The notes below the pieces were generated by a model, which was not told the DNA's origin, did not search any database, and saw nothing but the letters and a program-made list of their open reading frames with translations. DNA of 64,000 nucleotides from Acidobacteria bacterium AB60. Its GTDB lineage: Bacteria > Acidobacteriota > Terriglobia > Terriglobales > Acidobacteriaceae. Location of the stretch: contig VANK01000006.1 in NCBI GenBank assembly GCA_008682415.1, positions 124,001 through 188,000 on the forward strand, written 5' to 3'. Position 1 is the stretch's first letter; each line of letters begins with the position of its first letter. Position numbers and translations under genes: made by a program. Shown one piece after another: positions 19,850 through 57,480 of this stretch.

Positions 19850-22579
19850 TCAATCCGCGCGCAGCGCCCGCGACGGCTCAACCGCCGCCGCCCGCCGCGC
19901 CGGAACCGCCGCCGCCACCACCGCCATCACGACAATCCCCAGCACTCCCAGCCCGTACACCGCTGGATCCGCAATCGACACTCCGTACAGCTGACTGCGC
20001 ACCGCCCGCAATGCCAGCATCGCCACCGGAAGCGCGCCACCCACCGCCCAGCCCGCCAGCACCAGCGTCTCCCGCAGAATCAATCCCATCACCGTCGTTC
20101 GTCGCGCCCCCAGGGCCATGCGAATCCCAATCTCGCGCGTGCGCTGCGTCGTCGCGTACGCCAGCACCCCATACAGCCCAATCCCCGCCAGCAGCACCGC
20201 AACCACGCCAAACGCGCCCGCCAGCAGCGCCACCGTGCGCTCCGCCATCAGGCTCTTGTCGATCTCCTCCGTCATCGTCGTTACCTTGTTCACAATCAGG
20301 CGCGCATCAATCTCCTTCAACGCCGCGCGAATCGATCCCGCCGCCAGCTTCGGTTCCATCCCGGTGCGCGTGTACACCATCAGGCTGCCTGGCTTCTCCG
20401 CCTGCACAAACAGCGTGTAGCAAATCGGCCCGCCTGCCTCGCGCATCGACGCATGCTTCACATCCTCCACCACGCCCACAATCACCGCATCCGTGTTGGG
20501 CCGGTCCGGCCTCTGCACGTGCCTCCCCAGCGCCGCCTGCGGACTCGCAAAATAATGCCGCGCAAAGCTGCGGTTCACAATCGCCACCTTCTGCGAGGTA
20601 GCCGTATCCGTGCGCGCAAACAGCCTCCCCGCAAGCAGCGGAACCCCCAGCGTCTGCAGATACCCATCGCTCACCCACGGCAGTTCGATATCAAACTCCT
20701 CGTCCGGCTTGGGCGTGTAGCCGCTCACCTCCACATCCCCGCCCCGCCCGCTGGCCGTCAAATCCTCGTCGTTCGTCGCGCCCACCGCCCGCACGCCCGG
20801 CAACTGCGCCATCCTCTCCAGAACCCGTCCCTCCACCTCCACCACCGCAGCCCCGCGATACCCCGACAACTCCGGCGACAACTCAAACGCCAGCAGATGA
20901 TCCGTCGCAAACCCCGCGTCCGCATGCCGCAGGTTGCCAATCGTGCGCGTGAACATCCCCGCCCCCACCAGCAGCAGCAGGCTGAATCCCACCTGCAACA
21001 CCACGCAGCTTCGCCGAAACTTCAACCGGTGGCCCGCGCCGCTCCCCGCCTGCTGCCGCAACGCCTCCGCCAGCCGCGGATTCCAAAACTGCGCCGCCGG
21101 AGCCAGGCTGAAAAGCACGCTGCCCGCCACCGACACCGCCAGCGTGAACACCAGCACCCGCCAATCCACGCTCGCTACAAATGCTGAAGGATCCTCAGAC
21201 CCGGCGTTCATCCAGTTCACCAGCACATGCTCCGCCTCCGGAACCAGTGCCAGGCCCGCCGCCGCTCCCAGTAGTCCCAGCAACAACCCCTCGCACAGCA
21301 GCTGGCGCAAAATCTGCGCTCCCGTCGCTCCCAGCGCATAGCGCACGCTGAACTCCCGCACCCGGCTCGCCGCCCGCACCAGCAGCAGGCTTGCTACATT
21401 CAGCAGCGCCATCAGGGTAACCAGCCCCACCATCCCCATCACAATCAGCAGCGGCGTGCGCACGTCATCCCGCAACGGCGAAAACCCCGTCGCCCCCGCC
21501 TCCAGGTTCAGGTGCGCTCGGTCTACAAAACTCGCCCACGTCTTCGCGGAGTGGTCCCGCAGTCCCTTGAACTCCTCCGCCCGAATCGCGCGATACAGCG
21601 GGTTCAGCGCCGCCGACGCCTTCTCTGCACGCACGTCCCCGCGCAACCGGCCCACCACAGAAAGCCAATAGTCGTTCCGCCCCTCCAGATAATCCCACTC
21701 CGGCAACACCACTTTCTGTTCCGTCATCGGCACGTACACCGCCGGCGTGTGCCCCCACACCATGCTCCGAAATCCCTTCGCGGCCACTCCCACCACCGTG
21801 AACGGCGTTCCGTTGATCAACAGCGTCTCGCCAACAACCGGCGCTCCTCCCAGGTGCGTCTTCCAATACTCGAAGCTCACCACCGCCACGCGGTTCGCCC
21901 CTGGCGCCGTCTCATCGCTCGCGGCCAGCAGCCGCCCGCTCTGCGGCATCACGCCCAGCACCTCAAAGTAGTTGCCGCTCACCATCTCCGCGGAAACCGC
22001 CTCGGCGCGCTCGTGCCACTGCACGCCCACCGTCGCCTCCGCCTCCGCAATCAGCCCCTCCAGAACTCCGTTGCGCGCGCGCAGATCGCGAAACATCGGA
22101 TACGAAAACGCGTGGACATGGCCATTCGTGTCCCCGCCCTCCGAGTGCATATGCCCGGGATGCGCTCCCCCCGCGCTCAACACCACCAGCTCCTGCGGAT
22201 CCCGCACCGGCAGCGTCGCCAGCAGAGCCTGGCTCAACAGGCTGAAGATCGTGCTCGTCGCTCCCGTCGCCAGCGCCAGCGTCAGCACCGCCACCAGCGT
22301 CAGCCCCGCATTGCGCCACAAGCCGCGCACCGCAAAGCCCAGGTCCCGGCCCAGCAGCTCCAGCCTCCAACTCGGCCGCTCCGCGCGACACTGCTCCCGC
22401 GCCCTCTCCCGTCCGCCAAACGCAATCGCCGCGCGTCGCCGCGCCTCCTCCGCCGTCATGCCCGCCGCCAGGTTCGCCTCCACCTGCCGCTCCAGGTGGA
22501 ACGCAAGCTCCTCGTCCACCTCCGTGCGCCGCTTGCCCTTCACAAAAAAACGCGCGCGCGTCATCCACTCGCTCAGCAT
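19850..22579 (-). CDS. ADOP-type ABC permease, 909 aa
   Basis: The ATG at 22579 follows GGGAGG; the longer frame is shadow of the PadR gene. The N terminus has the short helical region typical of the group (VDEELAFHLERQVEANLAAG), then a membrane segment, a large periplasmic MacB-like domain (about 110-330), membrane helices around 350-480, a second periplasmic domain and a last permease block with RTREIGIRMALGARR. This duplicated permease without its own ATPase is the layout called ADOP in Acidobacteria. Substrate unknown; it needs a separate ATPase. It follows a PadR gene by 11 bp. Confidence 0.9.
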   Translation of the reverse strand: MLSEWMTRARFFVKGKRRTEVDEELAFHLERQVEANLAAGMTAEEARRRAAIAFGGRERAREQCRAERPSWRLELLGRDLGFAVRGLWRNAGLTLVAVLTLALATGATSTIFSLLSQALLATLPVRDPQELVVLSAGGAHPGHMHSEGGDTNGHVHAFSYPMFRDLRARNGVLEGLIAEAEATVGVQWHERAEAVSAEMVSGNYFEVLGVMPQSGRLLAASDETAPGANRVAVVSFEYWKTHLGGAPVVGETLLINGTPFTVVGVAAKGFRSMVWGHTPAVYVPMTEQKVVLPEWDYLEGRNDYWLSVVGRLRGDVRAEKASAALNPLYRAIRAEEFKGLRDHSAKTWASFVDRAHLNLEAGATGFSPLRDDVRTPLLIVMGMVGLVTLMALLNVASLLLVRAASRVREFSVRYALGATGAQILRQLLCEGLLLGLLGAAAGLALVPEAEHVLVNWMNAGSEDPSAFVASVDWRVLVFTLAVSVAGSVLFSLAPAAQFWNPRLAEALRQQAGSGAGHRLKFRRSCVVLQVGFSLLLLVGAGMFTRTIGNLRHADAGFATDHLLAFELSPELSGYRGAAVVEVEGRVLERMAQLPGVRAVGATNDEDLTASGRGGDVEVSGYTPKPDEEFDIELPWVSDGYLQTLGVPLLAGRLFARTDTATSQKVAIVNRSFARHYFASPQAALGRHVQRPDRPNTDAVIVGVVEDVKHASMREAGGPICYTLFVQAEKPGSLMVYTRTGMEPKLAAGSIRAALKEIDARLIVNKVTTMTEEIDKSLMAERTVALLAGAFGVVAVLLAGIGLYGVLAYATTQRTREIGIRMALGARRTTVMGLILRETLVLAGWAVGGALPVAMLALRAVRSQLYGVSIADPAVYGLGVLGIVVMAVVAAAVPARRAAAVEPSRALRAD

Positions 22580-22590
22580 GGCCGCCTCCC

Positions 22591-22920
22591 TCAAATCTCC
22601 TGCAACACCAGGTTGATTGCCCCCGTCAGCCGATGCCAGTTCGCCAGCTCCGCGTTCAGCTGCTTGCGCCCCGCCGCCGTCAGCGCGTAGAACCGCGCCT
22701 TGCGGTTGTTCTCGCTCGCCCCCCACTCCGCGCGAATCCACCCCTTGTACTCCAGCCGGTGCAGCGCCGGATACAGCGACCCCTGCCCCACCTGCAGCAC
22801 ATTCTCTGAGACCTCTTGAATCCGCTGCGCAATCGCCCATCCATGCAGCGGCTCATGCGCCACCGCCCGCAAAATCAACATGTCCAGCGTCCCCTGCAGC
22901 AAGTCCGTCGGTGGCGGCAT
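22591..22920 (-). CDS. PadR-family repressor, 109 aa
   Basis: A compact winged-helix protein: LLQGTLDMLILRAVAHEPLH, then GWAIAQRIQE, VGQGSLYPALHRLEYKGWI and AEWGASENNRKARFYALTAA, which are the PadR recognition helix and wing. The ATG at 22920 has GGGGAGAGGG upstream. PadR proteins usually repress neighbouring efflux genes and release DNA on binding small molecules. It lies 11 bp before the ADOP permease, so it probably regulates itself and the permease. Confidence 0.93.
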   Translation of the reverse strand: MPPPTDLLQGTLDMLILRAVAHEPLHGWAIAQRIQEVSENVLQVGQGSLYPALHRLEYKGWIRAEWGASENNRKARFYALTAAGRKQLNAELANWHRLTGAINLVLQEI

Positions 22921-23000
22921 TCCCTCTCCCCTCAACGCTCGACAAGAGCCTATCGCGTTCCCTTGTCGAACGTCAAGGGGAGAAAATTTTCGCATCTGTC

Positions 23001-23375
23001 CGAAGTTCCCGCACGACCGCGGGTGCCCTACCCAGCGCCTGTCATTCTGAGCGGAGCGCAGCGGAGTCGAAGAACCCGCAGTTGCCGTCCGAAGTTCCCG
23101 CACGACCGCGGGTGCCCTACCCAACGCCTGTCATTCTGAGCGGAGCGCAGCGGAGTCGAAGAACCCGCAGTTGCCGTCCGAGTTCCCGCACGACCGAGGG
23201 TGCCCCAGGTCTCCAGTTGTTGGAGACCTGGGATACCTCGAACCTCACCCAGCTTCTTCATCGTTCCCGCACGACCGAGGGTGCCCCGTCCTAGGCGCGC
23301 TTTATGCGCCTAGGGCGGGACAGCACGAACCCTAACCCATCCACATCGTTCCCGCACGACCGGGGTCCCCGGCTT
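23001..23375. repeat. Tandem intergenic repeats with variable hairpins
   Basis: This lies in the 595-bp gap (22921-23515), where I see no gene. Two 89-bp units (starting 23001 and 23090) share TTCCCGCACGACCGCGGGTG and a GTCATTCTGAGCG segment. Three further copies of the leader (near 23183, 23265, 23349) are followed by different hairpins, such as AGGTCTCCA/TGGAGACCT and CCTAGGCGC/GCGCCTAGG. The family recurs at 26645 and, inverted, at 57425. Confidence 0.85.
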
Positions 23376-23515
23376 TGCCTGAAGAACCGCCTTTTTGTAC
23401 GGACTATCTGGGTAGAGGACCCGATCCTCACCTGTTTCCCGATTCAACGCACCTTAAGCAAAGATAGGAAAGACCGGTCTTCCGCTCAGAGAGCACTTGT
23501 TGGGCTTCTGCTTCC

Positions 23516-26200
23516 CTATTCCGTTCGCAACACCTGAATCGGGTCCGTGCGCATCGCACGAATTGCCGGTAGATACATGGCAATAAGTGAGACAGCGGTC
23601 AGCAGTACAGCGGAGGCTCCGAACACTGTGGCGTCAAACCGGTGAAGTGGAAATGGAGACCTGGTAAGCAATCGATTGAACAGCAGCATCGCCGGTTCCG
23701 CAATCGCAAGTCCGCACATCAAGCCAATCGCAATACTTTTGATTGCCCGCAAAAGCACCGACCTGAAAACGACGGCGCGACTCGCGCCCAGCACCATCTT
23801 GATGCCAAATTCGCGCGTTCGCTGATTCACCGCGAATGACAGAACTCCGTAGACACCGGCGACAGCCATCAGCAACGCAATCGAGGTCATGACCAGAATA
23901 ATGTGCGCCAACGAAGTCATACCGTCCGCCTGATCCTCAAGCGACTCCCAAATGGTCTGGGGCGCGATCGTTTGCGTTGGATCCAGACTTTTAACGGCGT
24001 CTCGAACGGCAGTTTCCAGGGGCTTTGCGCCTCCCAGGAAGCGCACGTAAAGGTTGCCGCCGAGAGCGGATGCACTGCGGAGTGTATAGACGCGCGGTCC
24101 ATCGAGAACACCGAACCGCTCCGAACGAGTATCGGCGACAATCCCCACGACAGTAAGGTGGTGATCGTCAGGCATGACGATCGTCTTACCCAGCGGATCA
24201 CCACCAGGCCAAAACTGGTTTGCGAACGCCTGCGAAACAACTGCCACTGGGCCTGTGCCGGTGGAACCTACCTCGCCGGGGAGAAAGACCCGGCCCCGCA
24301 GCACGCGGATACCAAACGCGGAAAAGAAGCTGCTCGATACATCATCGACAGTCGCCGGTTGCCCGGTTCCCTTCGCCTGGCGCGGAAGGCGAATCTCTTC
24401 TGGTGAAGGCTGGTTGAATGGTTGAACGCTTGCATACGCCATCGACTGAACACCGGGCGTCGCGAGTAGCTTTGCTTCGAGGGCCTGATAAAAGGCCTCG
24501 GCCTTCGCCCGATTATTCCCAGATGTATTCACGTCCACCGGTACGGCAAGTGTCTGGTGAATTTCGAATCCCGGATTCATGCTTCTGATGAGACCGGGTA
24601 TCCGGCCGAACAGGACCGCCGCGCAGACCAGTACAAAGCCCAGAGCAATCTGCGTAGCGATGAGACCGCTGGTCGTGCGCGAGCGAACGGTAACGGCGCC
24701 TTCACGTCCCTTGAGCGCCGTCAGGAGATCCAGCTTCCATGCGGCACGAATCGGCATCAGTGACGACAATATGGTTGCGGCTGCCATGAGAATCGCCAGA
24801 TATCCAAAGACGCGCCAGTCGGGATGAAGAAGCACAACAAAATTGGCCTGACCTGCCGCCATGGTGTTCATGATCAGCAGCGGCACGCGATAGGCGAGTA
24901 CCATGCTGAGAGTTCCACCAATAAAAACGGTAAGCAGGCTCTCCGTCAACAACATGCCGGCGAGCCGCGATCGGCTGACACCCATCGCGAGGCGAATCGC
25001 GATTTCGCCCCTCCGTGCAAGGGTGCGCGAAAGAAAGAGCGTGGCCACGTTGCTGCAGGCAAGCAGAAGAATGAGCGCCAGCGGCCCCAGCATCAGCACC
25101 ATCAGTCCGAGCACCAGGTTATGGACGTTGGGATTTTCGATAAACGAGCCATTGGTGATCGCCAAGGTGGTTTTCCGATTGAAAGCCGAGACCTTCCGTT
25201 CCACGTATGCCCGATCCTGTCGGTTCATAACGGCCATTAGCTCAGCCCGCGCATCATCTCTCGTGAATCCAGCACGCAACCTTCCGATCATGGAAAGCCA
25301 TGGCGTGTCAGGGCTGGCAAGTAAATCCTGCGCTCGATTGAGCTGCGGCTCTAACGTGTACGGAACAAAAACCCCGCCAAGGAGGTAATTCGCAGCGTCT
25401 GAAGGCGCAACACCGATTACAGCTACGGGTACGCCATTCAGATGGATAGTCTTACCAACGATCCGCGGATCGGCGCCAAATTGGTGCTTCCACAATGGCT
25501 CGCTCAGCACCGCTACCTGCGCCCTATTACTGCGCTTACACTCCTCCGAGGCAAAGAACCTGCCCATCAGAGGACGATCAATTCCGAGTACGTGAAAGTA
25601 ATTGCAGGTAGCAAGCAACGTGGTGATGTATTTGTTTCCCTCTTCAACAAACGCAGCGTACTGTTGCTGCGCAGCCACCTCATTGAGAGCGTGCGAGTGA
25701 CTGCGAATGGCGTCAAAGTCCTCTGTCGTGAAAGCAGAATTTTGATCCGCCCCGGTGAACCATCCGGAGTATCGGGGACAAAGCTGTACAAAACTCGCCG
25801 GGTCGACCAGCGTTGGGGCTCTGAGGAACATCGCGTTCAACATCGTAAACACACCCGTGTCGAGCCCAATGCCCAGGGCGAGCGCCAGAATCGCCATCGC
25901 TGAGAGTAACGGCGCACGCCGTGCCGAACGAATGGCATAGCGAAAGTTCTGACCTATTTGTTCCAACCAGGCCCCGGACCACGTCTCATGTGTCTGCCCG
26001 CGGAGCGAAACAAGGTTTCCAAACGTCCGGAGAGCCGCGAGGCGAGCTTGTTCCTTACTCATTCCTCTTGCTAAATTCTCCTCAATCTGCCTATCGATGT
26101 GATCGCGCAGTTCTTCATCGAGGTCCGCATCCAGTCGTTCGCGACGAATCAGCGAACGCAGCCGCAAAGGAAGCGTGTACAGCCAGTTTTCGATCCACAT
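23516..26200 (-). CDS. ADOP-type ABC permease, 894 aa
   Basis: Second member of the same family as the gene at 19850. It opens with LDADLDEELRDHIDRQIEEN, the first membrane helix at about 95-115, a large periplasmic domain, membrane helices near 375-500, a second periplasmic domain with GDPLGKTIVMP, and a final permease block with RTREFGIKMVLGASR. Sequence differs substantially from the first copy, so it is not a recent duplicate. The start is 1 bp from the PadR stop, so the two are one operon. Transport substrate is not known. Confidence 0.92.
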   Translation of the reverse strand: MWIENWLYTLPLRLRSLIRRERLDADLDEELRDHIDRQIEENLARGMSKEQARLAALRTFGNLVSLRGQTHETWSGAWLEQIGQNFRYAIRSARRAPLLSAMAILALALGIGLDTGVFTMLNAMFLRAPTLVDPASFVQLCPRYSGWFTGADQNSAFTTEDFDAIRSHSHALNEVAAQQQYAAFVEEGNKYITTLLATCNYFHVLGIDRPLMGRFFASEECKRSNRAQVAVLSEPLWKHQFGADPRIVGKTIHLNGVPVAVIGVAPSDAANYLLGGVFVPYTLEPQLNRAQDLLASPDTPWLSMIGRLRAGFTRDDARAELMAVMNRQDRAYVERKVSAFNRKTTLAITNGSFIENPNVHNLVLGLMVLMLGPLALILLLACSNVATLFLSRTLARRGEIAIRLAMGVSRSRLAGMLLTESLLTVFIGGTLSMVLAYRVPLLIMNTMAAGQANFVVLLHPDWRVFGYLAILMAAATILSSLMPIRAAWKLDLLTALKGREGAVTVRSRTTSGLIATQIALGFVLVCAAVLFGRIPGLIRSMNPGFEIHQTLAVPVDVNTSGNNRAKAEAFYQALEAKLLATPGVQSMAYASVQPFNQPSPEEIRLPRQAKGTGQPATVDDVSSSFFSAFGIRVLRGRVFLPGEVGSTGTGPVAVVSQAFANQFWPGGDPLGKTIVMPDDHHLTVVGIVADTRSERFGVLDGPRVYTLRSASALGGNLYVRFLGGAKPLETAVRDAVKSLDPTQTIAPQTIWESLEDQADGMTSLAHIILVMTSIALLMAVAGVYGVLSFAVNQRTREFGIKMVLGASRAVVFRSVLLRAIKSIAIGLMCGLAIAEPAMLLFNRLLTRSPFPLHRFDATVFGASAVLLTAVSLIAMYLPAIRAMRTDPIQVLRTE

Positions 26201-26201
26201 C

Positions 26202-26537
26202 TCAAACCTCCGTAAGCCGCAACACGCCGGAAATGGCTGTTGAGCTGCGCTCCCAGTTTGCCGCCTCTTTTTCGAGATAGCGCCGCCCGAGCCGCGTCAG
26301 AGAGTAAAACTTGGCCCTCCGGTTGTTCTCGGTCGGCCTCCATTCGGCATGAATCCAGCCCTGCTGCTCAAGCTTGTGCAGAGCCGGGTAGAGCGACCCA
26401 TCGCTCACCTGCAGTACGTCCCCTGAGATCTGCTTCAGCCGCTGGCTGAGAGCCCATCCATGTAGCGGCTCAAGAGCAAGAATCTTCAGAACCAACAAAT
26501 CTAGGGTGCCCTGGATGAGGTCAGATGGTTTGCTCAT
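26202..26537 (-). CDS. PadR-family repressor, 111 aa
   Basis: PadR winged helix: DLIQGTLDLLVLKILALEPL, HGWALSQRLKQIS, VSDGSLYPALHKLEQQGWI and TENNRRAKFYSLTRLGRRYL. It matches the PadR at 22591 in order and spacing but not closely in sequence. It directly precedes an ADOP permease and most likely controls it. Confidence 0.93.
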   Translation of the reverse strand: MSKPSDLIQGTLDLLVLKILALEPLHGWALSQRLKQISGDVLQVSDGSLYPALHKLEQQGWIHAEWRPTENNRRAKFYSLTRLGRRYLEKEAANWERSSTAISGVLRLTEV

Positions 26538-26644
26538 GCGCGCTCCTCGCGGTTACCGAGAGATCATAGTCCACCTTCCCTCGGTAAGCAAGTGGAGCTA
26601 GCAGAACAACGCAAACTGCCAGGCGGTTCGGCCCCACTCACATC

Positions 26645-26910
26645 ATTCCCGCACGACCACGGGTGCCCCATGTCTCCCGTTGTTGGAGACATGGGAAAGC
26701 ACGACCCCCACTCAGCCTCTCTCCGCTCTCCCACGACCGAGGGTGCCCCGTTCTAGGCGCGCTTTATGCGCCTAGGGCGGGACAGCACGAACCTACCCCA
26801 GCCATCTCCGCTCTCCCACGACCGAGGGTGCCCCAGGTCTCCCGTTGTTGGAGACATGGGAAAGCACGACCCCCACCCAGCCGTCTGAGTTCCCGCACGA
26901 TCAAGGTTTG
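26645..26910. repeat. Second array of the variable-hairpin repeat
   Basis: Three or four units share ACCGAGGGTGCCCC and GGGAAAGCACGACCC-like flanks. Their stems are CATGTCTCC/GGAGACATG, CTAGGCGC/GCGCCTAG and AGGTCTCC/GGAGACAT; the last has one mismatch and looks like a hybrid of two types. The final copy decays after 26890. Confidence 0.85.
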
Positions 26911-57409: not shown

Positions 57410-57480
57410 CCGGGCCGGGCGGGTTCGTGCTTTCCCACCCTAAGCGCAAAGGCAAAGACGCGCTTAGGATGGGGCACCCC
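57410..57480. repeat. Inverted copy of the variable-hairpin repeat
   Basis: Read on the minus strand it has GGGGTGCCCC, a stem CCTAAGCGC/GCGCTTAGG and then GGGAAAGCACGAACCC, the same frame as the arrays at 23.2 and 26.7 kb but with yet another stem sequence. Confidence 0.8.

Follow-up and report, generated by a model that had tools for sequence, protein, structure and literature searches.

RAYTs (REP-associated tyrosine transposases, named after repetitive extragenic palindromes, REPs) are HUH transposases of single-stranded DNA. Their recognition of REPs and the coevolution of stem and enzyme are largely known from gammaproteobacteria. There, RAYT genes have inverted REP flanks, and the repeats have evolved together with the enzyme through complementary mutations (PMC2817692). 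Compensatory change and mixed GI-GIII REP tandem arrays have been described in P. fluorescens SBW25 (PMC3116915). For acidobacteria, TIRYT genes and TIRtrons have been named; self-complementarity is seen in some TIRs of the TIRYT class and membership of repeat families in some, and GTAG and CGTC repeats are reported to have few or no head-to-tail dimers (PMC3733652). Class 3 TnpA-Y1 transposases are associated with atypical CnGA-foot structures, present in about 600 copies in Solibacter (PMC6006769). Otherwise, repeats are hardly described in this dominant soil phylum.

The repeats analyzed here are very probably the REP-type hairpins of a TIRYT-like REP/RAYT system of the Acidobacteriaceae, with a GTGC instead of a GT[AG]G foot. 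Like the gammaproteobacterial REPtrons, the system has a Y1 gene with REP flanks, usually an inverted pair, coevolution of REP and RAYT, a palindrome kept by complementary mutations, and dispersed intergenic copies; it differs in its foot, its acidobacterial host, and a much wider diversity of stems behind one foot (PMC2817692). With the acidobacterial TIRYTs it shares Y1 transposases with inverted-repeat flanks, but the published motif GGGGWSAS does not match GGGTGCCCC (PMC3733652). The GI-GIII arrays of SBW25 likewise combine two REP types in a regular tandem of one orientation, whereas the replicative unit of SBW25 is an inverted doublet (REPIN), which does not occur in the arrays of Acidobacteria bacterium AB60 (PMC3116915). 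The Solibacter structures are also acidobacterial, numerous, and flank a transposase, and some AB60 linkers end in CCGA; however, that linker end varies, and the RAYTs of this clade carry Y---NP and not Y----Q (PMC6006769). Since these RAYTs are thus class 2, a reading of the units as class 3 CnGA-foot REPs is rejected. No description of the hairpin family was found among the open-licence papers searched. Distinct features here are the GTGC foot, arrays that run strictly head to tail, and the wide range of stems that share a single foot.

The window, a stretch of 64,000 nucleotides of the AB60 genome, contains six complete units plus linker copies that lack a hairpin. GGGTGCCCC starts at positions 23198, 23279, 26661, 26741, and 26826 on the plus strand and at 57479 on the minus strand. 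The features are as follows.

23005 to 23029, plus strand: array linker GTTCCCGCACGACCGCGGGTGCCCT without hairpin, in the first of two 89-bp tandem copies
23198 to 23244, plus strand: unit 1, stem CCCAGGTCTCCA/TGGAGACCTGGG
23279 to 23331, plus strand: unit 2, stem CCCGTCCTAGGCGC/GCGCCTAGGGCGGG, with GTGC/GCAC closing below it and a 3-nt bulge
23348 to 23366, plus strand: hairpin-less partial array linker GTTCCCGCACGACCGGGGT that closes the first array on the right
26661 to 26706, plus strand: unit 3, stem CCCATGTCTCC/GGAGACATGGG
26741 to 26793, plus strand: unit 4, stem CCCGTTCTAGGCGC/GCGCCTAGGGCGGG, with two T.G wobbles
26826 to 26871, plus strand: unit 5, chimeric stem AGGTCTCC + GGAGACAT, with one mismatch
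57425 to 57479, minus strand: unit 6, a single copy with convergent genes on either side, stem CCCATCCTAAGCGC/GCGCTTAGGGTGGG

All units that the preliminary description had named at 23.2, 26.7, and 57.4 kb are present, with the four stems it had claimed. Two details need correction: the unit at 23198 ends in GGGATACCTCGAACC and not in AGCACGAACC, and the upstream ACCGn is missing from the unit at 57.4 kb. It had also taken one unit for a recombinant with a single mismatch, and the unit at 26826 is indeed a chimera, made of an AGG arm and a CAT arm with one G.A mismatch. Hairpin-less linker copies with GGGTGCCCT, at 23005 and 23094, extend its list.

When folded as DNA, all six units of the window far outperform their shuffled versions (z from -2.6 to -5.2). 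As RNA, five of the six are clearly better than shuffles, the chimera at 26826 being the weak one. By itself, the 9-mer core shows no enrichment in this stretch, with 20 matches at up to one mismatch where 29.8 are expected; what exceeds chance is the paired unit, not the bare core.

In the 89-bp tandem copies (22998-23086 and 23087-23175), the array linker is fused to a different repeat, TGTCATTCTGAGCGGAGCGCAGCGGAGTCGAAGAACC, apparently of a family of its own. The minus strand carries two tandem operons (19853-22920 and 23519-26537), each with a PadR regulator and a MacB/FtsX-type permease, and a REP array lies directly upstream of the PadR gene in both.

Each unit consists of the 5' foot GGGTGC and a hairpin with a CCC/GGG closure and a lineage-specific stem of about 10-18 bp. 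The order of reading is GGGTGCCCC, stem-loop-stem, GGG, two bases, and then usually AGCACGAA. Many copies have the 3' end ANAGCACGAA, the GCAC of which is able to pair with GTGC across a 3-nt bulge. As is usual for REPs, the units are short, palindromic, intergenic, and high in copy number, and a cognate RAYT is flanked by the same repeat. The GT[AG]G foot expected 5' of a canonical REP hairpin is not the rule: hairpins next to RAYT genes have GTGC in 49 cases and GTGG in 5. For this reason they are called REP-type and not canonical REPs. A sister hairpin with the foot GGGTGG, whose GTGG is a canonical REP foot, stands beside some RAYTs of the clade (L214, L221, L223, and L228).

According to the preliminary description, pairing is kept while the stem sequence changes, as in a structure under selection in DNA or RNA. 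A fair test of covariation uses units that were located by their anchors only, so that the arms play no part in the search. Such a set comprises 129 distinct units from other genomes, with 66 different 8-nt 5' arms. Full 8-nt pairing is found in 51% of units with their own arms, compared with 2.3% when arms of different units are combined. In the GTCTCC family of AB60, 95 units are concordant (74 ATG/CAT and 21 AGG/CCT) against four discordant ones (AGG/CAT or ATG/CCT). Covariation is thus strong, and the proposed mark of selection holds across both the genome and the family. Alignment A2 overstates the effect, since its units were hand-picked as paired. Outside the AB60 genome, at least 46 distinct 6-nt arms stand behind one constant foot.

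A REP-type transposase had been suggested as a mobilizing enzyme, and one bracketed by these hairpins is found. The AB60 genome has five Y1-transposase genes, of which two (on contigs C13 and C4) belong to a single clade and have GTGCCCC hairpins at their flanks. Members of this clade match the NCBIfam model REP_Tyr_transpos and have invariant HVH and Y...NP motifs, the latter being the class 2 Y---NP signature with its catalytic tyrosine. Among solved structures, E. coli TnpA-REP (4er8, E 1.4e-16) is the best match. By HUH motif, catalytic tyrosine, and similarity to TnpA-REP, these enzymes are therefore RAYTs.

The hairpins follow the RAYT genes closely. Within the genus, they flank 23 of 25 members of the RAYT clade and none of 16 other Y1 transposases (Fisher p 1.5e-9). 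In other genera they lie just upstream and downstream of the RAYT gene, mostly as an inverted pair. Unit density, with all Y1 loci pooled, is 0.28 per kb near RAYTs and 0.03 farther away. Moreover, both flanks of one RAYT have an identical stem in 21 of 24 cases, compared with 9% across genes (0 of 20000 permutations). RAYT identity is correlated with stem identity (Mantel r 0.44, 0 of 5000 permutations), stem identity being 0.80 where the RAYT proteins are more than 60% identical and 0.35 below that. It is this link to a transposase of single-stranded DNA that favors selection at the DNA level.

The cognate stems of the two AB60 RAYTs are dispersed in the genome, CTTGC at 35 places and CTAAC at 28. 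Because each enzyme is accompanied by scattered copies of its own stem, the stem families are seen as RAYT-linked populations. Both RAYTs match minority families, and the stem families of the window have no cognate RAYT in the AB60 assembly. Either these two families have lost their own RAYT, or it is absent from this assembly. Their stem types do have RAYTs in sister species, as with the AGGTCTC type (L211, L214, L217, and L223).

The family is not confined to a few copies. At least 106 strict copies occur in the 6.65 Mb AB60 genome, with none for the reversed control pattern; copy numbers for AB60 come from pattern and capped searches and are lower bounds. A covariance-model search, as had been proposed earlier, returns a large set across genomes of the family: all 36 Terracidiphilus-type genomes that were searched have units, and none of the 24 genomes from other families of the order and class does. 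Counts per genome from the model are likewise lower bounds, with scores for 36-150 candidates in each. Of 160 genomes drawn evenly from the order, 103 are positive, representing 26 of 45 genera, and all listed positives fall in one family. The contig scan matches Acidobacteriaceae, including Terracidiphilus gabretensis S55, and its few actinobacterial or other matches look like chance. Among the same 160 genomes, 79 have both units and the RAYT clade, 24 only units, 21 only the RAYT, and 36 neither (p 1e-6), with detection thresholds that differ between the two. A natural data set spanning 26 genera of the family is thereby at hand for matching stems with enzymes gene by gene.

Most copies in AB60 are arranged in head-to-tail tandem arrays with a period of about 78-87 bp. 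All 30 AB60 arrays are intergenic, as are 119 of 133 sites in other genomes (rough gene finder). Within arrays, units with short stems (GTCTCC) alternate with long-stemmed ones (TAGGCGC and similar), and both kinds have one common linker, the end of which varies (CCGA, CCGC, or CCAG). Linkers are more alike within arrays than between them (similarity 0.80 compared with 0.73, 0 of 2000 permutations), which points to local growth of arrays. Several contigs terminate in or near units (C4, C5, C8, C13, C28, and C32); for annotators, the arrays at these ends are REP arrays.

All 17 AB60 arrays of more than one unit have a single orientation. A REPIN, in which an inverted REP doublet is the replicative unit, is for that reason rejected; inverted hairpin pairs do exist at the flanks of RAYT genes. 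Intrinsic terminators, with a T-run after the hairpin, were also considered, and no predicted terminator overlaps any unit.

By analogy with TnpA-REP, the transposase would recognize foot and hairpin in single-stranded DNA, and would copy or move the non-autonomous units into intergenic DNA. Pairing would be maintained because the folded hairpin is the sole substrate, while the stem sequence could drift freely along with the enzyme. The stem families of the window would then be copies whose RAYT is missing from the AB60 assembly. Arrays may have expanded secondarily through local tandem duplication, and chimeric units may stem from recombination or template switching between units, both judging from sequence. 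A more speculative form of this model, and a doubtful one, is that the GTGC-CCC/GGG foot used by a single transposase family stays invariant and that the stem serves as an exchangeable specificity code, rewritten together with the enzyme. One genome would then house several mutually exclusive REP populations, interleaved within common arrays and sharing one linker.

Mobility itself is inferred from the analogy. A flank-based search for orthologous sites yielded two pairs. One is a presence/absence site (L118 compared with L164, flanks 80-82% identical). At the other (L068/L106, an intergenic site with flanks about 78% identical), a unit is present in both species and the stems are unrelated. 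For the unit at 57.4 kb, an empty-site search based on its trpE flanks aligned only trpE, with no synteny past it. Single-strand transposition might predict an orientation bias between replichores. With dnaA as the origin there is none (p 0.12 in genome G137 and 1.0 in G002), and a replication-strand bias obtained by splitting at an arbitrary contig start (p 0.009) is gone.

Could the units instead be mainly structured RNA, such as 3'-UTR hairpins that stabilize mRNA or bind a protein, with covariation reflecting RNA selection? Their RNA folds are strong, and stem positions 2-3 have a conserved T.G wobble that is limited to the unit strand. This strand bias was rejected as evidence for RNA, as it depends on these two fixed positions; beyond them it vanishes (17 T.G and 11 G.T in other genomes). 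Moreover, AB60 arrays with codirectional neighbors are sense in 7 cases and antisense in 8, no Rfam covariance model matches, and RAYT-specific stems would be left unexplained, all of which makes an RNA role highly unlikely. A purely mutational origin is just as improbable. In that case one arm would be rewritten from the other whenever the template switches at inverted repeats, giving pairing without selection. Such an origin would account for the near-perfect stems and for the chimeric and truncated units that occur (among them L040 and L047), but not for RAYTs whose two flanks carry the same stem, for the constancy of the foot, or for stem types linked to RAYTs. Template switching could, however, operate alongside the RAYT system.

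A chromosome-organizing or gyrase-type binding role has been proposed for BIMEs. Arrays kept as such sites would fit the regular period, the uniform orientation of the 17 multi-unit arrays, and the recurrent intergenic placement, yet array content and period vary by site and most other genomes have single units rather than arrays, so that this role seems extremely unlikely here. Recombination-site or immunity arrays, that is, integron attC sites or CRISPR, share the regular tandem layout and the combination of conserved parts with a variable palindromic part. They can be set aside almost with certainty: no cassette ORFs lie between units and the period leaves no room for any, the alignment lacks the outer boxes GTTRRRY and RYYYAAC, its invariant columns reading GTGCCCC...GGGANAGCACGA, and the spacers form palindromes that recur from one array to another.

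Some units depart from the regular architecture. L047 (G000:C27:301735-301792) is a chimera in which a full ATGTCTCC hairpin is followed by the remnant of a 3' arm from a TAGGCGC-type hairpin. In units of the array L040, near 1558-1742, foot and 5' arm are missing and the linker is fused to the loop at a common CCGC, as in a slippage deletion. Finally, hybrid units with AGAGCCTGCCCTGAGC..TCGAAGGGTCTC within the hairpin recur in several species (L088, L093, L114, L142, L151, and L168), as though another common repeat had been inserted into the 5' arm.
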